Below are positions 2,932 through 32,120 of a stretch of DNA of 37,028 nt, piece by piece. A program made the position numbers and the translations under genes. A model generated the notes under the pieces. That model searched no databases, was not told the origin of the DNA, and saw nothing but the letters and a program-made list of their open reading frames with translations. Every line of letters starts with the position of its first letter. Position 1 is the first letter of the stretch. The DNA comes from Thermoflexus hugenholtzii JAD2 (GTDB taxonomy: Bacteria; Chloroflexota; UBA11872; UBA12225). The stretch spans positions 1 through 37,028 of the forward strand of contig CAMDTO010000011.1 in assembly GCA_945907765.1 (NCBI GenBank). Direction: 5' to 3'.

Positions 2932-4071
2932 GTGCCCCCGGCAGTAATCCTTCCGATCGACCCCCAGCATCCGGATCGCCGTCTCCTTGTGCGAGCCGGA
3001 GCTGTCATCCGGTCAGGTGGGCTTGTCGCCTTCCCGACCGAGACGGTGTACGGGCTTGGTGCGAACGCTTTTGACGACCACGCCATCGCCAGTCTGTACA
3101 AGGCGAAGCGACGGGACGCGCGCGACCCGCTGATCGTGCATCTTGCTTCGGCCAGTGGCCTTCCGCGCGTCGCGACCGATATTCCGGAGGCCCTTGGACA
3201 CCTGACCACGCGGTTCTGGCCGGGTCCGCTGACGATCGTCGCACGCAGGCACCCGGATGTTCCCGGGCGTGTCTCTGCGAATCGTCCTACCGTTGCCGTC
3301 CGTGTTCCCGCCCATCCGGTTGCCCGAGGACTTATCGAGGCCTCCGGTGTTCCCGTTGTTGCCCCAAGCGCCAACCGGTTCATGCGGTCAAGCGCGACCC
3401 GCGCATCGCATGTGGTCGCGGACCTTGGCGAAGTCATTGATCTGATACTCGATGGAGGGCCAACTGAGATTGGTCTCGAGTCGACGGTCGTCGCTACCGA
3501 CGACGACGGGTCTGTGCGTGTCCTGAGACCCGGCGCAATTCCGGTCGAGGCGATCGTCGTGGCCCTTCGCGACGCTGGCATTGATGTCCCGGTTCACGTT
3601 GGCGCTGTGCAGCGGGTGGCCTCGAACGATGGCGAACTCTCACCGGGACTTCTTGAGACCCATTACGCCCCCCGGGCCACGCTGGTCCTTGTCTCTGGGG
3701 CGCCGGCGAGTTCTGTGAGGTTGATGGTCCAACTCCTGCATGATGCGATTGCCGCCGGTGAACGGCCCGGTCTCATCGTGTATGACGAGGATGCTGATTC
3801 GTTGATTGACCCCCGGATGCCCCATCGGGTCACGATTTCGCATGTTGGCTCAGTTGCGAGTCCGGAAACCATCGCACACAACCTCTTCGCATCATTCCGT
3901 GACCTTGATGCTGCCGGTGTGACACGCATCGTCGCGCGCACCATCGATGCTGTCACCACCATGCCCGGACGACCGCCGATTCCCGGTGGCTTCGGCCTCG
4001 CGCGCGCGATTGACGACCGCCTGATCCGCGCCGCTGGCAGCCGGGTCCACCTCACTGGATCAATGAAATGA
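2932..4071 (+). CDS. sua5: L-threonylcarbamoyladenylate synthase (Sua5/YrdC family, long form)
   Basis: Makes threonylcarbamoyl-AMP from threonine, bicarbonate and ATP in the cytosol, the first step of t6A37 modification of ANN-decoding tRNAs. Residues ~15-200 form the YrdC domain: the substrate motif FPTETVYGLGANAF, the KRRDARDPLIVH loop, the PSANRFMRSSAT segment and the closing STVV...VLRPGAI. A linker (LSPGLLETHYAPRATLVLV) leads to the C-terminal Sua5 domain (to residue 379), so this is the long Sua5 type rather than the short YrdC type; 379 residues is typical. The GTG start is supported by the -10 placement and lack of a Shine-Dalgarno. The aminotransferase-like gene follows 10 bases after the stop and is probably co-transcribed. 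Confidence 0.93.
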   Translation: MPPAVILPIDPQHPDRRLLVRAGAVIRSGGLVAFPTETVYGLGANAFDDHAIASLYKAKRRDARDPLIVHLASASGLPRVATDIPEALGHLTTRFWPGPLTIVARRHPDVPGRVSANRPTVAVRVPAHPVARGLIEASGVPVVAPSANRFMRSSATRASHVVADLGEVIDLILDGGPTEIGLESTVVATDDDGSVRVLRPGAIPVEAIVVALRDAGIDVPVHVGAVQRVASNDGELSPGLLETHYAPRATLVLVSGAPASSVRLMVQLLHDAIAAGERPGLIVYDEDADSLIDPRMPHRVTISHVGSVASPETIAHNLFASFRDLDAAGVTRIVARTIDAVTTMPGRPPIPGGFGLARAIDDRLIRAAGSRVHLTGSMK

Positions 4072-4081
4072 GGCCGAGCCA

Positions 4082-4999
4082 ATGACCGCCGATGCTTCCT
4101 TCCGGAGTGCGCAGGGCTACGCACCTGACCCGCGCAACGACGACGTCCTTGTCTATGTCAACGGCGAATTTGTCCCCCGCCAAGAGGCACGCGTGTCCGT
4201 CTTTGACAGTGGGTTTGTCCTCGGTGACGGTGTCTGGGAGGGCCTTCGCCTTGTCAGTGGCACGTTGATCAGCCTCGATGCCCATATGGATCGCCTCTTC
4301 GAGGGTGCGAATTCCATCGCTCTCGACATTGGCATGACCCGTGAGGCCGTCGTGGATGCGGTCTGGCAAACCCTGGGCCGCAACGGCATGACCGACGGCG
4401 CCCATGTCCGCCTGATGGTGACCCGGGGTGTCAAACGCACTGTGAACCAGGATCCACGCTTCATCATCGGTGGCGCGACCATCGTGATCGTCGCCGAGTA
4501 CAAGATGCCGAACCCCGAATCGAAGGCGCGGGGACTTACCCTTTTCACTTCGACGTTCCGCACCAGTGGGCCTGATATCTTCGACTTGCGTCTGAACTCG
4601 CATAGTCGCCTCAACCTGATCCAGGCACTCATCCAGGCGATCAACGCCGGTGCCGACGAGGCGCTGATGCTTGACCCGCGAGGCTTCGTTGCGAGTTGCA
4701 ACTCAACGAACTTCTTCATTGTCCGCCGGGGCGAACTCTGGACCTCCTCCGGCCTCTACAGCTTCAAGGGGATCACCCAGCGCACCGTCATTGACGCCTG
4801 GGAGAGCGCAGGCAGTCGTGCGCGCGAGTGCGACTACACCCTTGCGCAGGTCTACTCGGCCGACGAGGCTTTTGTGACCGGGACGCTTGGTGGGGTCACG
4901 CCGGTCGTGCGGATTGACGGTCGGCAGATTGGGGACGGCAAGCCCGGACCACTGACGGCCCGGGCCTTTGAGCTCTACACGGCCGCGGTCATGCCCTGA
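4082..4999 (+). CDS. Class IV aminotransferase-fold protein lacking the canonical PLP lysine
   Basis: 305 residues with the fold-type IV aminotransferase pattern (branched-chain or D-amino-acid aminotransferase, ADC lyase). The N-terminal signature VFDSGFVLGDGVWEGLRL and the HMDRLFEGA segment are typical. Aligned by eye to the family, the Schiff-base lysine (K145 in D-amino-acid aminotransferase, K159 in IlvE) falls on Asn172 (LNSHSRLNLI). The glutamate that contacts the pyridine nitrogen falls on Ser205 (GFVASCNSTNFFIV). The spacing of 33 residues matches the family, so this is not an alignment slip. It may bind PLP without classical transamination, use another residue, or do different chemistry. 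The start is an ATG 10 bases after the sua5 stop with a weak GAGG upstream. Databases may call it branched-chain aminotransferase; I would not assert that. Confidence 0.8.
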   Translation: MTADASFRSAQGYAPDPRNDDVLVYVNGEFVPRQEARVSVFDSGFVLGDGVWEGLRLVSGTLISLDAHMDRLFEGANSIALDIGMTREAVVDAVWQTLGRNGMTDGAHVRLMVTRGVKRTVNQDPRFIIGGATIVIVAEYKMPNPESKARGLTLFTSTFRTSGPDIFDLRLNSHSRLNLIQALIQAINAGADEALMLDPRGFVASCNSTNFFIVRRGELWTSSGLYSFKGITQRTVIDAWESAGSRARECDYTLAQVYSADEAFVTGTLGGVTPVVRIDGRQIGDGKPGPLTARAFELYTAAVMP

Positions 5000-5017: not shown

Positions 5018-5953
5018 TCACGCCTTCGACGGGTCGGTCATGTGGTCGGCCGGATTGCGCCATGAGCGCGTGGCCTTCCAACCCAGCAGTCGCTTGGCCC
5101 GCGCGTTGGAGATGCCCGCCTCGGTCGCACCGATCATCGCCATGCCCGGGACGTTGGCGGTGCCCGGATACGCCCGCGCGATCAGGTCTCGCGTCGGTTC
5201 CAGGCCCCATGAGTCATCTTGCACCGCATACAACTCGGTGCACGCTGCCTCGGGGTTGTCGCTCTCGAGTGCGAGCCGGAACATCGCCGCAAGGTCTCGA
5301 GGATCGGTGTAACTGAAGAGCGCCCGTTCTCCGGACAGCGGGTTGGCCTTGAAGTGGGTTTCCATGTTCGGGTAGTCCCACGGTCGGGCCACGAGGCTTG
5401 GTCGAATAGACACCACGCGCAGTTTCCCTGCCGTCCGACGGTGGATCTGTTCAGCGGTCAACTCGCCAAGCAGCTTCGACAGGCCGTACGGATCCTGTGG
5501 TCGGTTGGCGTGGGTCTCGTCGACGGGCACGAAGTCGGGCAAGTGCAGGTGCGTGCGGTACCCCTGCCCCAGCGTATTGATGCTGCTTGCCATTGCGAGT
5601 GCCTTGAGACCGAGTACGGCTGCTGCTTCGCACGCATTGAAATTACCGACGACGTTGGTCGTGAAGACGTGGGTGTCCGGGAACGTGCCTGGGGAAGCAA
5701 TGGCTGCGAGGTGGATCGCCGCATCGGCACTGGCGAAGACCTCTATGAGGTCGCCAAGGTTCTCATGGTTCCCGATCCGGTAGCGTACCCCCGGCACTGC
5801 CGGTTGGAGCCCCCGGGGTGTCGCATGCTGGGGTGGGCGTTCACGGTCCAGCACGGTCACGGTCCACCCGTGCGCGACCAGTTCGCGCACCACCCATCCG
5901 CCAATCCACCCGCACCCCCCCGTAACCGTCACTCGTCGTGTCATTTGTTCCAC
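5018..5953 (-). CDS. NAD(P)-dependent extended SDR (epimerase/uronate-dehydrogenase-like)
   Basis: A Rossmann-fold extended short-chain dehydrogenase of ~311 residues. The nucleotide-binding motif VTGGCGWIGGWVV is at the N-terminus, followed by an acidic residue after strand 2 (VLDRE, favouring NAD) and the active-site Y-x-x-x-K (PYGLSKLLGE), with ASSIN supplying the catalytic Ser. The overall pattern recalls sugar epimerases and uronate dehydrogenases. The track's ATG at 5995 overlaps the CYTH gene; a GTG at 5953 is preceded by GAGGAAGGGG, and an ATG at 5944 is another option. It is the last gene of a minus-strand unit after the methyltransferase and CYTH genes and converges on the aminotransferase-like gene with 18 bases between. 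Two sugar-acid dehydratase-like genes nearby suggest sugar or sugar-acid metabolism. Confidence 0.85.
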   Translation of the reverse strand: MEQMTRRVTVTGGCGWIGGWVVRELVAHGWTVTVLDRERPPQHATPRGLQPAVPGVRYRIGNHENLGDLIEVFASADAAIHLAAIASPGTFPDTHVFTTNVVGNFNACEAAAVLGLKALAMASSINTLGQGYRTHLHLPDFVPVDETHANRPQDPYGLSKLLGELTAEQIHRRTAGKLRVVSIRPSLVARPWDYPNMETHFKANPLSGERALFSYTDPRDLAAMFRLALESDNPEAACTELYAVQDDSWGLEPTRDLIARAYPGTANVPGMAMIGATEAGISNARAKRLLGWKATRSWRNPADHMTDPSKA

Positions 5954-5964
5954 TGTCCCCTTCC

Positions 5965-6690
5965 TCATGCCCTGTGTGACTGGCGTGCAAGCCACGCACG
6001 CGCCGCTTGCACTTTGCCAGAACGTGCCGGTCGCAGTCGCGTCATGCCTGCAACCAGGTTCGAGACCTCCGTGACCACTTCCGGTGCCCCGCGGGCCAGT
6101 TCGATCTCCACGTAGCGGCGCACATACGGGTGCCCTTCCAACCGGACCTCGTCTAGCGAAAGGATGACCTCGGCGTAGTCATGCGGGGCGCCTGTGTTCG
6201 CGTGACGACGCAGTCTCAGGTTGCGCCTCGGATTGACCAGGACCGCGCCGCCGGCAAGGTCGCCGGGGTACGCAATCCCCCGTGCCCGAAGCGCGTCAAT
6301 GACGGGACGGGCTTCGGCGACTGAGCCCCATTCACGGACCGGGACGCTGACCAGCATCGCCGCCGTGAGTTCCGTCCGCGCCATGACCCCCTCGCCCGTC
6401 TCCCCTGCATGTGCATTCGCTTCGCTTGGGCCACCCGGTGCATTCCCGGCCGGTCCCTTGAGGGTCAACTCGCCGATGTCGTCTCCATCAAGTGATCGGA
6501 TCCGCAAGGTGCACCGTTGCCTCGCCAACCCATGGCCGGGAGTGTCGAAGTAGGTATCCCTCAGACGGGTCTCGGTCTGTTCCACCACCCGCCAAGGGCC
6601 AAATGCGCCGGCCTCGGCAAGGACGGCGAACGCCTGACGCGACGCCCGCAACTTCACCTCGATTTCGATCAGCGTGGGTGCTCCCGGCAT
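5965..6690 (-). CDS. CYTH domain protein (triphosphate tunnel metalloenzyme)
   Basis: About 241 residues. The diagnostic N-terminal E-x-E-x-K motif is present (LIEIEVKLRA), followed by the alternating acidic and basic strand pattern of the tunnel fold (RDTYFDTPGHGLARQRCTLRIR, GELTLKG, YAEVILSLDEVRLEG, YVEIELARG). Known members are inorganic triphosphatases, thiamine triphosphatases and class IV adenylate cyclases; the specific activity cannot be read from sequence. The ATG at 6690 is chosen because it overlaps the upstream methyltransferase stop as TGATG, a typical coupling arrangement; the track's longer form reads into that gene. The SDR gene begins about 11 bases downstream. Confidence 0.85.
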   Translation of the reverse strand: MPGAPTLIEIEVKLRASRQAFAVLAEAGAFGPWRVVEQTETRLRDTYFDTPGHGLARQRCTLRIRSLDGDDIGELTLKGPAGNAPGGPSEANAHAGETGEGVMARTELTAAMLVSVPVREWGSVAEARPVIDALRARGIAYPGDLAGGAVLVNPRRNLRLRRHANTGAPHDYAEVILSLDEVRLEGHPYVRRYVEIELARGAPEVVTEVSNLVAGMTRLRPARSGKVQAARAWLARQSHRA

Positions 6691-7881: not shown

Positions 7882-9090
7882 CTAGTTGCCCGACCGCCGA
7901 ACGACCGCATCCGGGCGTTCGGTCAGTCCCGGCAGGAGTGATGTTCCCAGGCCGGGGACATTTGGCAGCGTGATGTGCCCGTCGGCCACGATGGGCAGGC
8001 CAGTCACCAGTTCGGTGTACCACCCGGTGTAGAAGGCACGCACGACCTCCTGGATCAAGGTATTCGGGGCATTCATTGCCACATGCACGCCCGCCGCCCA
8101 GGTCACCGGACCGGTGCAGTCATGCGGTGCGACTGGCAGCCCGAAGGATTCCGCCAACGTCGCGATGGCCTTGCCTTCGGAGATGCCTCCGCACCAGCCA
8201 AGGTCCAGCATGACGTAACTGGCGGCTCGCGCTTCCATGAGCTCACGGAATCCACCACGGTTCCCGAGCAGTTCGCTTGCAGTCGTCGGGATCCGCGTCC
8301 CATGCGCAAATTGGGCCAGCGATGCGATGTCGTCAGGACGGACTGGGTCCTCGATCCAGAATGGCCGGATGTCCTCGCGCTCGAATGCCTGCGCGATCTG
8401 CAGGGCCGCCGGCGTCTGCCAAAGGCCATGCAGTTCGACCATCAGGTCCATGTCGTAGCCGACCACTTCACGTACCCGCCGGAATGGACGCATCGCGGTG
8501 TCGAGTTCACGTGGCGAAATCGAGGTCCCGTTCGTCCGGTACGCAGCCTCGTCAAAGGGCCACATCTTCATGCCCGAGATGCCCATGGCCAAGAGGCTCT
8601 GGGCAAGTGGACCCGCATCACCGGTCAACCAGGCGTCGAGGTCTTCGTATGGGCCGATGCTGTCGACGCCCACGCCCCAGTTCTCACGTGCCTGGCCGAC
8701 TGTCTTGCGGACGTACCGGTAGCCGGCGCAGGTGTTGTAGACCCGCACGCGGTCGTGGGAGGCTCCGCCAAGCAATTCGTAGACGGGTGCTCCCAGGTGC
8801 TTGCCCTTGATGTCCCAGAGCGCCATGTCGATCGCGGAGAGGCCCCGGCGTTCCACCCCGGTTCCCTTCGTTCCCACGTAGCCCGGCAAACTAGTGCGCA
8901 GTCGGTCGATGCGACCGGGATCCTGCCCGATCAGCTTCGGCGCTACGGTCTCGTGCAGGTATGACGCGACTTCGGGTGCGCCGAAGAACGTCTCACCCAA
9001 CCCGACAATCCCCTCGTCGGTATGAACCTGCACGAAGAGGATGTTGCCGAACTCCTCCAGTTGGATCGTTTCGATCCCGGTCACTTTCAT
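7882..9090 (-). CDS. Enolase-superfamily protein (mandelate racemase/muconate lactonizing family; sugar-acid dehydratase-like)
   Basis: 402 residues. The capping domain is at the N-terminus (MKVTGIETIQLEE, GLGETFFGAPEV) and the TIM barrel follows (SAIDMALWDIKGKHLGAPVYELLGG). Metal ligands are visible: the acidic residue in LMVELHGLW, Glu in FWIEDPV and Glu in TTASELLG. The His two residues after the first ligand (E-L-H) and the His in APHDCTGPVTWAA match the acid/base pair of galactonate-dehydratase-type enzymes rather than the Lys pair of racemases. The likely reaction is dehydration of an aldonic or aldaric acid to a 2-keto-3-deoxy acid; the exact substrate is unknown. The ATG is preceded by GGAAAGGAA. 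It follows the related gene 9184-10317 across a 93-base gap with a nested palindrome. Confidence 0.85.
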   Translation of the reverse strand: MKVTGIETIQLEEFGNILFVQVHTDEGIVGLGETFFGAPEVASYLHETVAPKLIGQDPGRIDRLRTSLPGYVGTKGTGVERRGLSAIDMALWDIKGKHLGAPVYELLGGASHDRVRVYNTCAGYRYVRKTVGQARENWGVGVDSIGPYEDLDAWLTGDAGPLAQSLLAMGISGMKMWPFDEAAYRTNGTSISPRELDTAMRPFRRVREVVGYDMDLMVELHGLWQTPAALQIAQAFEREDIRPFWIEDPVRPDDIASLAQFAHGTRIPTTASELLGNRGGFRELMEARAASYVMLDLGWCGGISEGKAIATLAESFGLPVAPHDCTGPVTWAAGVHVAMNAPNTLIQEVVRAFYTGWYTELVTGLPIVADGHITLPNVPGLGTSLLPGLTERPDAVVRRSGN

Positions 9091-9183: not shown

Positions 9184-10317
9184 TCACCAGTTGGTGATGC
9201 TTCCATCGAGGCGACGCAACTGGGGCAGTTCGGCAATCTGGAACGGATGCTTGCGCGCCGCGTCACGGTCGAAGTCGATCCCGAGGCCCGGTCGCGTCGG
9301 TGGCAGGAGGTAGCCGTTCTCCCACGGAACCTGCACGGTCACGACGTCCATGAGTGAGGTGCCCGGTTTCCGGGGCTGTTCCTGCACGCCTACGAGTGGC
9401 GAGGCAAGATTGAGGTGCAGGCACGCCGCGGTCGAGACCGGTCCCAGCGGATTGTGGGTCGCCAACTTGATGTAATGCGTTTCGCACCAACCGGCGATCT
9501 TCTTGGCTTCGGTGAGACCACCGCAGATGCCAAGGTCGACACGGCAGAAATCCATCAGTTCTTCCTCAATGACCTGCCGGAACTCCCACTTGCTTGCGAA
9601 CTGTTCCCCGACCGCGATTGGCGAATGCACGTGTTGCCGGACCAGGCGCAGGCTTTGCATGCTTTCGGCGCGGATCGGATCCTCCATGAAGAAGGGGTTG
9701 AACTCCTCGACCGCCCGGCAAAGCCTGATGGAATCGGCCGGATCCAGCCTGGTGTGGATGTCGAAGCACAGCTCAACGCTGTCGCCAAGCGCCTTTCGGA
9801 GGGCCGCGAACTCCCGTACCGCCTGTGGAATGGCGACCGATGGTTCCAGGATGTTTCCGAACTCCGCCAGGCCCCAGCGGACGAACTTCCACCCTTCGGC
9901 AACATGCTTCTGGGCATTCTCAACCAATTCCTCGATGGACGGTCGCTGAATGTGCGGATAACACACGACCTTGTCGCGGCACAGGCCACCCAGGAGTTCG
10001 TACACCGGAACATTCAGGGCCTTCCCCTTGATGTCCCAGAGTGCGATGTCAATTGCCGCAATCGCCGAGGTCGCAATGTTCTGCGCCGGGAAGAAGCCGC
10101 CGCGCGACATCATCTGCCAAAGGTGTTCAATCCGGAACGGGTCCTGGCCGATCAGGAATGTCTTGAAGTGTTCGATGACTCCCTGGACCGCCAACTCACG
10201 ACCGGTCAGACCGGCTTCACCAATGCCCCAGATCCCTTCGTCGGTGTCGACCACCACGAAGAAGTAGTTCCGTGATCCTCCCCAGACCGGGTAGCACTCG
10301 ATATCCGTGATCTTCAT
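9184..10317 (-). CDS. Enolase-superfamily sugar-acid dehydratase (galactonate-dehydratase-like)
   Basis: 377 residues of the mandelate racemase/muconate lactonizing family. The N-terminal capping segment (VVVDTDEGIWGIGEAGLTG) precedes the barrel (AIDIALWDIKGKALNVPVYE). The metal and catalytic pattern is complete for the DgoD-type group: D-x-H (LCFDIHTRL), Glu (FFMEDPIRAE), Glu (IAVGEQFAS) and the later His (LATHNPLGPVSTAA). Such enzymes remove water from galactonate, gluconate or related acids to give 2-keto-3-deoxy acids; the substrate is not assignable here. The ATG at 10317 has the Shine-Dalgarno GAGGGAG about 7 bases upstream. Its leader region carries a 10-bp tandem repeat. It is the promoter-proximal gene of a minus-strand pair with 7882-9090. 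Confidence 0.87.
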   Translation of the reverse strand: MKITDIECYPVWGGSRNYFFVVVDTDEGIWGIGEAGLTGRELAVQGVIEHFKTFLIGQDPFRIEHLWQMMSRGGFFPAQNIATSAIAAIDIALWDIKGKALNVPVYELLGGLCRDKVVCYPHIQRPSIEELVENAQKHVAEGWKFVRWGLAEFGNILEPSVAIPQAVREFAALRKALGDSVELCFDIHTRLDPADSIRLCRAVEEFNPFFMEDPIRAESMQSLRLVRQHVHSPIAVGEQFASKWEFRQVIEEELMDFCRVDLGICGGLTEAKKIAGWCETHYIKLATHNPLGPVSTAACLHLNLASPLVGVQEQPRKPGTSLMDVVTVQVPWENGYLLPPTRPGLGIDFDRDAARKHPFQIAELPQLRRLDGSITNW

Positions 10318-14554: not shown

Positions 14555-16845
14555 GCGCCGACGCGCCATCGCCCGGTCGTGTCCTCTTCCTGATGCCCCA
14601 GATGCCATGGCCTGCCACGCAAGGTACCGCGCTCAGGAACTTCCATTTGATGAGAGCGATCACCGATGCCGGCCTGGAAGTCGACCTGATCACGTTTGGC
14701 GACCCTCGGCGTTCCATTCCAACGGAGATCGATGCGGTCTGCGGCCGGATTGAGATAGTCCCTCTACCAATACGGAGCCTTTTGACTCGCGTGCGCACGT
14801 TCCTTGCCGGCGAGCCCGACCTCGCCTGGCGCCTTTCCTCGTCTGAGTTTTCGACCCGGCTTGATGGCATGTTGCGTGATGGCAGGTACGACGTGGTCCA
14901 GATTGAGGGTTTCGAGATGGCCGGGTACCTGCTTGGGCCCGGCGCCTTGCGTCGAGAGGCGTGGGACCGTGCGCCGTGGACGCTTGCTGGTCACCGAGCT
15001 CCGCGCATTGTCTTTGACGATCACAATGCCGAGTACCAGTTGCAGGCGTCGGCCTCCCGGGTGGATTCGCAGCGCCCGCGCCGATGGCCACTCGCGCTGT
15101 ACTCGTGGGTCCAGGCCTCTCGCATCCGACGTCGCGAGGCACTCTACGCGTCGGCTGCCGATGCCTGTATTGCCGTGTCAGATGAGGATGCCAATCTCCT
15201 TCGCGAGATTGCCCCGGGTGTGGCTGTCCAGGTGGTGGCGAACGGGATTGATGTGCGGTCGTACCGCAACGTTTCGTCGCCGACCGTCCCGCCCATTGTC
15301 TTCTTTGCGGGAAAGCTTGATTACCGCCCGAATGTCGATGCGTGTGAGTGGCTTGTGCGTTCGGTCTTGCCAACCGTGCGTGCGTCGGTCCCTGATGCCC
15401 GGGTTGTACTCGCTGGTCGTGACCCTTCACCGTCAGTCCGGGCGCTCGCGGGTCCTGACATCGAGGTTACTGGGTACCTCTCCGACGCGGACATGCGTGC
15501 CCGTCTCGCCGGTGCGACCGTCGCGGTCGTTCCGATCCGGATGGGAAGCGGGACGAGGTTCAAGGTCCTCGAGGCGATGGCTTCGGGTGTGCCGGTGGTG
15601 GCTACCCGCTTTGGTGCCGCTGGATCCGGCATTGTTGACGGTGTGCACGGCCTCTTGTCCGAGAATGCGTCGGATTTGGCGTCTTCCCTCGTCCGTGTGC
15701 TTCGTGATGCGTCGCTGGGGAATGCCCTGACCGTGCGGGCAAGGGAACTCGCCGAGGCGCGACATGACTGGTCGGCAATCACCCCGCACTTGGTCGCAGT
15801 CCACCGTCATCTCATCGGTGACGTGATGCCTCCGGCCAGTGTGATTGCAACTGTCCGGAACGAGGCACGAACAATTGCTGAAGTGATTTCGGGTGTCGCC
15901 CGACAGCAACCAGTCCCGGCGGAGATGGTTGTTGTCGACGGTGGCTCGGACGATGGCACGCTGAGCGTGGTCCGCGAGTGCGCGTCGCGCCTGGACGCTG
16001 CCTCTGCGGGGCTGCACCTCACACTCAGGACGGAACCCGGTGCCAACATCTCACGTGGGCGGAATCTCGCTGTTGAATGCGCCAAGGGTGACGTCATTGC
16101 GGCCGTTGACGCAGGGACGGTGCTTGCCTCGGACTGGTTCTCGCGTCTCGTGGCGCCATTCAGGGGGGATGCCCGTGTCGGTGTTGTCAGCGGGTTCTTC
16201 GTTGGTGCACCAGAGACAGATTGGGAGCGCGCCCTTTCGGCGACGACCCTGCCCTTGGTTGAGGACATCGACCCGGTGCGGTTTCTGCCGTCCAGTCGGT
16301 CGGTGGGGTTCCGGCGGTCCGATTTCGTCCGGGCAGGGGGGTATCCGGAGTGGTTGGACTACGGTGAAGACCTTGTTCTCGATCTTGCCCTGCGTCGCCT
16401 GGGCGTCGTGTTCCGGTTTCAGCCGCGTGCGGTTGTCCGTTTCCGTCCCCGTCCCACTCCTCGTGCCTACTTCCTGCAGTACTACCGCTATGCGCGTGGT
16501 GATGGGAAGGCGGGACTGTTCGCACGTCGGCACGCCATCAGGTACGGCGCCTACATCGGTGGCGCGCTGCTTGCGATGGGTGCCCTTGACGGTCGGGGAG
16601 GAAGACTTCCAGCTACGCTGTTGGTAGCTGGCGCAGTGGGCTATTTGCGTCGGCCGCTGTTGCGCCTCGCGGTCACCGCCTCTTCGCCAGCAGACTTGAT
16701 GCGGTGCGCACCCCTCCTGCCACTCGTGCGCATCGTTGGGGACGTGGCAAAGATGGCCGGCTACCCCGTAGGGTTGTGGTGGAGACATTCGCGCGGGGTC
16801 CTCTCCCATGATCGCCGACCGATCACTGCCTGGACCACTGAGTAA
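14551..16845 (+). CDS. Bifunctional glycosyltransferase: GT4 domain fused to GT2 domain
   Basis: A single uninterrupted frame of about 764 residues. Residues ~10-410 form a GT-B GT4 enzyme: N-terminal VLFLMPQMPWPATQGTALRN, then VFFAGKLDYRPNVDACEWLV, VTGYLSDADMRARL and the donor-site GSGTRFKVLEAMASGVPV. From ~425 a GT2 (GT-A) domain follows: ASVIATVRNEARTIAEV, the metal/nucleotide motif VVDGGSDDGTLSV, AVDAGTVLASDWF in the position of the D-x-D region, and YGEDLVLDLALRRLG with the catalytic acid. A hydrophobic tail (YIGGALLAMGAL, LLVAGAVGYLRR) may tether it to the membrane. The protein could add two successive sugars. The ATG overlaps the previous stop (ATGA) and the stop overlaps the next start (TAATG). 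Confidence 0.88.
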   Translation: MSADAPSPGRVLFLMPQMPWPATQGTALRNFHLMRAITDAGLEVDLITFGDPRRSIPTEIDAVCGRIEIVPLPIRSLLTRVRTFLAGEPDLAWRLSSSEFSTRLDGMLRDGRYDVVQIEGFEMAGYLLGPGALRREAWDRAPWTLAGHRAPRIVFDDHNAEYQLQASASRVDSQRPRRWPLALYSWVQASRIRRREALYASAADACIAVSDEDANLLREIAPGVAVQVVANGIDVRSYRNVSSPTVPPIVFFAGKLDYRPNVDACEWLVRSVLPTVRASVPDARVVLAGRDPSPSVRALAGPDIEVTGYLSDADMRARLAGATVAVVPIRMGSGTRFKVLEAMASGVPVVATRFGAAGSGIVDGVHGLLSENASDLASSLVRVLRDASLGNALTVRARELAEARHDWSAITPHLVAVHRHLIGDVMPPASVIATVRNEARTIAEVISGVARQQPVPAEMVVVDGGSDDGTLSVVRECASRLDAASAGLHLTLRTEPGANISRGRNLAVECAKGDVIAAVDAGTVLASDWFSRLVAPFRGDARVGVVSGFFVGAPETDWERALSATTLPLVEDIDPVRFLPSSRSVGFRRSDFVRAGGYPEWLDYGEDLVLDLALRRLGVVFRFQPRAVVRFRPRPTPRAYFLQYYRYARGDGKAGLFARRHAIRYGAYIGGALLAMGALDGRGGRLPATLLVAGAVGYLRRPLLRLAVTASSPADLMRCAPLLPLVRIVGDVAKMAGYPVGLWWRHSRGVLSHDRRPITAWTTE

Positions 16846-32046: not shown

Positions 32047-32120
32047 TGGGGCGTAGCCAAGCGGTAAGGCACGGGACTTTGAATCCTGCATCCTAGGTTC
32101 GAATCCTAGCGCCCCAGCCA
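32047..32120 (+). tRNA. tRNA-Gln (anticodon UUG)
   Basis: A cloverleaf can be drawn: acceptor TGGGGCG pairs with CGCCCCA; D-arm GCCAAGCGGTAAGGC; anticodon arm CGGGA-CTTTGAA-TCCTG giving anticodon TTG; T-arm CCTAG-GTTCGAA-TCCTAG-like with the TTCGAAT loop. The U1-A72 pair is typical of bacterial glutamine tRNAs. The discriminator is G (32117) and CCA is encoded (32118-32120). It reads CAA codons, and CAG by wobble. It lies between ispE and glmU under its own promoter. Confidence 0.95.

Follow-up and report, generated by a model that had tools for sequence, protein, structure and literature searches.

The DNA analyzed here (the window, 37,028 nucleotides in all) carries at positions 4082 to 4999 (+) an open frame with an ATG start, which encodes a protein of 305 amino acids. 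The protein matched the Pfam family Aminotran_4 (PF01063) over the full model with 140.3 bits (gathering threshold, 28.5), and phmmer found class IV proteins of known structure. An AF2 model was built (pLDDT, 84.4; pTM, 0.83), and a Foldseek search with this model ranked the PDB entry 7z79 first (TM, 0.86 to 0.89), with branched-chain aminotransferases (BCATs) at a TM of about 0.8. A previous sequence-only reading of the locus had claimed a class IV aminotransferase fold and suggested an AlphaFold model as a check. The fold is supported by both the Pfam score and the model, whose closest solved structure, 7z79, is a class IV protein. The NCBIfam models for BCAT, DAAT, and PabC also matched the protein, none of them reaching its curated cut-off (TIGR01122, 191.9 versus 245.55; PRK08320, 243.1 versus 363). 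The supposition that databases label the subfamily as branched-chain aminotransferases needs adjustment, since annotation pipelines mostly call its members "aminotransferase class IV."

The class IV gene starts 10 bp downstream of a Sua5/YrdC gene (threonylcarbamoyl-AMP synthase; 2932 to 4071, +), and an NAD-dependent epimerase gene (5018 to 5995, −) converges on it from the other side; both neighbors are syntenic in the genus. The Sua5/YrdC and class IV genes are perhaps cotranscribed, and we know of no functional link between them. The epimerase gene is outside the class IV system. Between an MFS gene and Sua5 lies a tyrosine recombinase gene (Phage_integrase; 1700 to 2812, +). Two further species of the genus have it in the same syntenic position, so it is not a recent insertion.

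Elsewhere in the window, two mandelate-racemase/enolase family genes (7882 to 9090, −; 9184 to 10317, −) are 99 to 100% identical between species of the genus, and the nearby Sua5, CYTH, and ProC genes show 78 to 97% identity between the same species. The two genes are thus either unusually strongly conserved or were recently exchanged between species. ARAGORN predicted a tRNA-Asn (16248 to 16338, +) inside a glycosyltransferase open reading frame, which is probably a false positive, because Rfam gives no support; a tRNA-Gln (32047 to 32120) is supported by both programs.

The active-site positions

In a phmmer alignment with the Archaeoglobus fulgidus BCAT 5mqz, Asn172 of the window protein faces the lysine of IKSLNYL and Ser205 faces the glutamate of VSEGSGDN, with zero gaps between the two sites. 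The Escherichia coli IlvE, aligned with MAFFT and used as a ruler (numbering with Met), gave the same assignment: Asn172 corresponds to Lys160, Arg176 to Tyr165, and Ser205 to Glu194. Accordingly, in the stretch Asn172-Ser-His174-Ser175-Arg176 (4595 to 4609, +) the Schiff-base lysine is replaced and Arg176 occupies the position of the tyrosine at the PLP O3', and in Ser205-Cys206-Asn207 (4694 to 4702, +) a serine takes the place of the glutamate that binds the pyridine N1. The two sites are 33 residues apart in the window protein and in a canonical relative, and 34 apart in IlvE, due to a one-residue insertion in the latter. These results confirm three proposals of the sequence-only reading, namely, that Asn172 stands at the Schiff-base lysine, that Ser205 stands at the pyridine-contacting glutamate, and that the spacing between them is conserved. 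A misalignment hiding the lysine was ruled out by the gap-free 5mqz alignment and by the depositors of 7z79, who chose N174K for their mutant.

The statement that the signature of the fold is intact held only in part. The segment DSGFVLGDGVWEGLRL retains the [ED]Gx[KR] portion of the BCAT motif YxxxxF[ED]Gx[KR] (PMC8401098), but not its Tyr and Phe, which are replaced by Leu47 and Trp52. Consequently, the window protein, with LGDGVWEGLR and HVR...TVN, matches neither this motif nor the second BCAT motif, YxR...[LMVI]G[VL] (PMC8401098). The DAAT motifs FxxxxYxV[IVA][KR] and HxY...[RK]xH were likewise not found in it.

Using the residue roles given in PMC8401098, transferred via the IlvE alignment, we found that all four ligands of the PLP phosphate are retained in the window protein: Arg71 (4292 to 4294, +), Ile231 and Thr232 (4772 to 4777, +), and Thr268 of the beta-turn (4883 to 4885, +). 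Among 88 family sequences, Arg71 and Thr232 are each kept in at least 86; position 231 is Ile in 80 and Leu or Val in the remainder, and at position 268, 86 sequences have Thr and 2 have Ser. By contrast, all three contacts to the ring are swapped (Lys to Asn, Tyr to Arg or Lys, Glu to Ser or Thr). The residue at position 176 always predicts that at position 205, the combinations being Arg176-Ser205 (61/61) and Lys176-Thr205 (27/27); since this pairing follows the tree, one or two events may account for it. As judged from the alignments, no structural clue to the nature of this protein is stronger than this combination of lost ring contacts and a preserved phosphate cup.

Family conservation, spread, and origin

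A genome scan yielded at least 553 confirmed relatives, of which the best 80 were kept. These 80 are mostly from Pseudomonadota and also include sequences from Rubrobacter, Acidimicrobiales, Balneola, Fodinibius, Croceitalea, and one member of the Anaerolineae, so that the Asn family spans Pseudomonadota, Actinomycetota, Balneolota/Bacteroidota, and Chloroflexota. Position 172 is Asn in 88 of 88 family sequences, and position 205 is Ser in 61 and Thr in 27. The suggested widespread subfamily that shares the LNSHS and CNST blocks and lacks the catalytic pair therefore exists. In the family tree, which the sequence-only reading had recommended, it splits from seven canonical rows with an SH-aLRT of 99; the outgroup branches are long.

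Seventeen residues that hardly vary within the family are missing or uncommon in the canonical proteins used for comparison, a small set made up of IlvE and seven class IV proteins from relatives: Arg18, Asn19, Trp52, His108, Met112, Lys118, Gln123, Glu139, Asn172, His174, Ser175, Gln185, Met196, Asn207, Phe211, Ser222, and Leu254. Arg18-Asn19 (4133 to 4138, +), part of an N-terminal D-x-R-N motif, is present in 88/88 family sequences and absent in the canonical relatives. His108 (4403 to 4405, +), at the position of BCAT Tyr95 (literature numbering), is also found in 88/88. Lys118 (4433 to 4435, +), in the O-pocket loop, and Glu139 (4496 to 4498, +), which is Trp in IlvE, are each conserved in 87/88. 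The window protein has the LN[SC]HS[RK] and [ST][CT]N[SA][TC] blocks together with His108, Lys118, and Glu139, and thus belongs to the 7z79-type family.

The Nei-Gojobori dN/dS of the window gene was 0.06 to 0.12 against four relatives of the same host family and 0.08 to 0.13 against three members from Pseudomonadota, the synonymous sites being near saturation in the latter comparison. In one other genome (G002), the protein is 93% identical, while Sua5 and ProC there show 81 to 85% and 84% identity, respectively. We conclude that the class IV gene is under purifying selection and that neither decay nor chance is at work. A sequencing error or decay as the source of the replacements was ruled out, since near relatives share the residues and dN/dS is low.

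The conserved, family-specific Lys118 is the main candidate for any replacement lysine. Lys141 is kept in 85/88 sequences. A displaced lysine, best Lys118, could form the PLP aldimine and make this an unusual PLP enzyme. However, the single exception at position 118 is Arg, and the position lies in the O-pocket loop, two positions ahead of Arg98, the carboxylate trap of bsDAAT (PMC8401098); in the Curtobacterium pusillum enzyme, a lysine is reported to bind a carboxylate (PMC8401098). This location makes carboxylate binding likelier than a Schiff base. Furthermore, the ring-contacting Glu and Tyr are gone too, and we consider a displaced Schiff-base lysine very improbable.

Joint loss of the ring contacts and new invariant charged residues in the pocket region would also be compatible with a fully PLP-independent enzyme, in which His174, Lys118, Glu139, and their neighbors would carry out hydrolytic, lyase, or isomerase chemistry and the phosphate cup would be a structural relic. 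Yet a relic would not need its four phosphate ligands, which are conserved across phyla, and we regard this explanation as a rather unlikely one.

Canonical Lys/Glu class IV paralogues coexist with the Asn gene in 14 of 14 other genomes checked. Replacement of IlvE by the Asn gene was ruled out for the genus and ten other genomes, in which canonical Lys/Glu class IV genes coexist with it. A second class IV gene was not found in the host genome, a MAG of 87% completeness, which may explain the missing gene. No viral homologues were found.

Together with four relatives from two genera, the window sequence forms a clade inside the Pseudomonadota rows of the tree. Of 41 genomes of the host's class, 5 contained the nucleotide pattern of the block, and these 5 belong to one family. 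Among the matches listed, the window protein is 81 to 82% identical to its nearest Pseudomonadota members. In contrast, the host DnaK is about 61% identical to plasmid-borne Pseudomonadota DnaK, and the host 16S is closest to Thermomicrobium roseum, at only 75%, among plasmid-borne 16S copies. Since the host, apparently of a Chloroflexota-like phylum, is this far from Pseudomonadota by DnaK and 16S, the comparisons are most simply explained by horizontal transfer, and the host probably acquired the class IV gene from Pseudomonadota.

Gene neighborhood in relatives

For 93 loci of relatives, genes were predicted by a simple classifier based on composition, with tblastn as a check. About 40 of the 93 loci have SBP_bac_3, permease, and ATPase genes of an importer, mostly with a GntR/FCD regulator gene alongside (solute-binding protein, 36; permease, 41; ATPase, 44; GntR, 33). 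The class IV gene is often the last gene of the importer operon. On annotated plasmids of Paracoccus and Palleronia, the order is GntR, solute-binding protein, permease, permease, ATPase, class IV gene; an Agrobacterium plasmid shows the same order with ProC inserted, a Pseudomonas savastanoi plasmid carries a reordered operon, and Pantoea has an MmgE/PrpD insert. Additional neighbors in the 93 loci are ProC (8), MmgE/PrpD (7), HyuB (7), HyuA (6), and a ClC channel (5); in two loci, a mandelate-racemase family gene accompanies an ornithine-cyclodeaminase family gene, and an amidohydrolase gene is also among the neighbors. The importer and the amino acid catabolism neighbors point to uptake and catabolism of amino acid-like compounds. 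The solute-binding protein of the operon keeps the Arg of T-x-E-R and has F-H-P where amino acid-binding relatives have D-S-P, a hint that the importer ligand may lack the usual free alpha-ammonium group.

In five loci (L094, L097, L018, L019, and L029), from Paracoccus, Agrobacterium, Azospirillum, and Falsirhodobacter, a ClC chloride-channel gene accompanies the importer and the class IV gene; three of the five also have ProC. We considered whether the reaction releases chloride but dropped this idea, since 5 of 93 loci are too sparse a basis.

A Sulfotransfer_5 (PF19798) gene was found in 28 of the 93 loci. In most of the loci L052 to L081, it adjoins the class IV gene, usually as the next gene downstream, and the class IV proteins concerned are members of the Lys176/Thr205 clade. 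This context and the importer context are nearly exclusive of each other, and it is not obvious how the Sulfotransfer_5 context would belong to the same pathway. The sulfotransferase-like partner has an invariant Arg (position 107 of the first sequence) and an invariant Ser (position 115), which we take to resemble the PAPS 3'-phosphate motif. To our knowledge, no pathway joins Sulfotransfer_5 and the class IV gene.

In the window, neither importer nor Sulfotransfer_5 genes flank the class IV gene, its neighbors being Sua5 and the epimerase. No SBP_bac_3 match was detected in the 87%-complete host genome and no Sulfotransfer_5 match either, the latter in a search without a positive control. 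An importer operon or Sulfotransfer_5 neighbor is thus common, not universal, in the 7z79-type family. Since the importer is absent beside the host gene and SBP_bac_3 had no match, the importer is not essential to function.

The frequent position at the end of an importer operon, together with the loss of the catalytic pair, would suit a noncatalytic pseudoenzyme with a binding or regulatory task, such as sensing PLP or the imported compound. However, new invariant polar residues occupy active-site-homologous positions, and the operons already have a GntR/FCD regulator; such a pseudoenzyme appears improbable to us.

Proposed function and relation to known proteins

With a modest degree of confidence, we favor a class IV protein whose active site has been rebuilt, which has ceased to be an aminotransferase, and whose polar pocket turns over a small polar compound in a catabolic step. 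From the conserved residues and the gene context we infer catalysis, the non-transaminase status, the kind of substrate, and the cofactor state. Because neither the fold nor the phosphate cup has been lost, a phosphate ester probably still occupies the pocket; it could be noncovalent PLP/PMP or another phosphorylated ligand. The three ring-gripping residues are replaced as a set, so that an internal aldimine could not arise at its usual position. A new and highly polar group of residues, comprising His108, Lys118, Glu139, Asn172, His174, Ser175, Arg176, Ser205, and Asn207, would bind and turn over the substrate, a small polar compound that probably bears a carboxylate. In relatives, this compound would enter via the adjoining amino acid-type ABC importer under the GntR/FCD regulator, a context that makes one catabolic step the most likely role. 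More specifically, a lysine-free site with the phosphate cup kept may perform new chemistry on an imported amino acid-like compound, either without a cofactor or with noncovalent PLP/PMP or a different phosphate ester; we put this forward tentatively, at somewhat below an even chance.

Class IV aminotransferases serve as biocatalysts, and their annotation rests on the fold. A multiphylum family in which every ring contact and no phosphate contact is swapped offers a natural test of a lysine-free scaffold. It also calls for caution: leucine, isoleucine, and valine biosynthesis cannot be assigned from the fold, and the gene at 4082 to 4999 is the only class IV match found in the host genome.

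In the open-access literature searched, we found no paper on the function of the 7z79-type family, although such papers may exist, and nothing relevant on lysine-less aminotransferases or the plant proteins At3g05190 and At5g27410. The BCATs (IlvE and 5mqz) have the class IV fold and the phosphate ligands in common with the window protein, which lacks the equivalents of IlvE Lys159, Tyr164, Glu193, Tyr31, Phe36, and Tyr95 (literature numbering). D-Amino-acid aminotransferase and PabC share the fold, but their catalytic lysine and glutamate are likewise missing from the window protein. With 201 bits and about 38% identity, 5mqz is the next solved relative after 7z79 and 9j32.

The closest known protein, 7z79, belongs to the same subfamily. 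It matched residues 6 to 303 with 439 bits in phmmer, is 68 to 69% identical (TM, about 0.89), and has the LNSHS and CNST blocks with the same Asn and Ser. Its PDB title is "aminotransferase-like protein from Variovorax paradoxus" (2022), that of 9j32 (436 bits) is "mutant N174K" (2025), and phmmer describes both as "Aminotransferase, class 4." The depositors mutated the same Asn to Lys; the missing lysine had therefore evidently been noticed already, and the observation itself is not new. The Variovorax members differ from the window gene in lying within an ABC-importer operon. In summary, the kind of protein was already known through the solved structure 7z79 and the lysine-restoring mutant 9j32, and our analysis contributes the family-wide evidence, the split between phosphate cup and ring contacts, the gene context in the operons, and the gene's probable transfer to the host.
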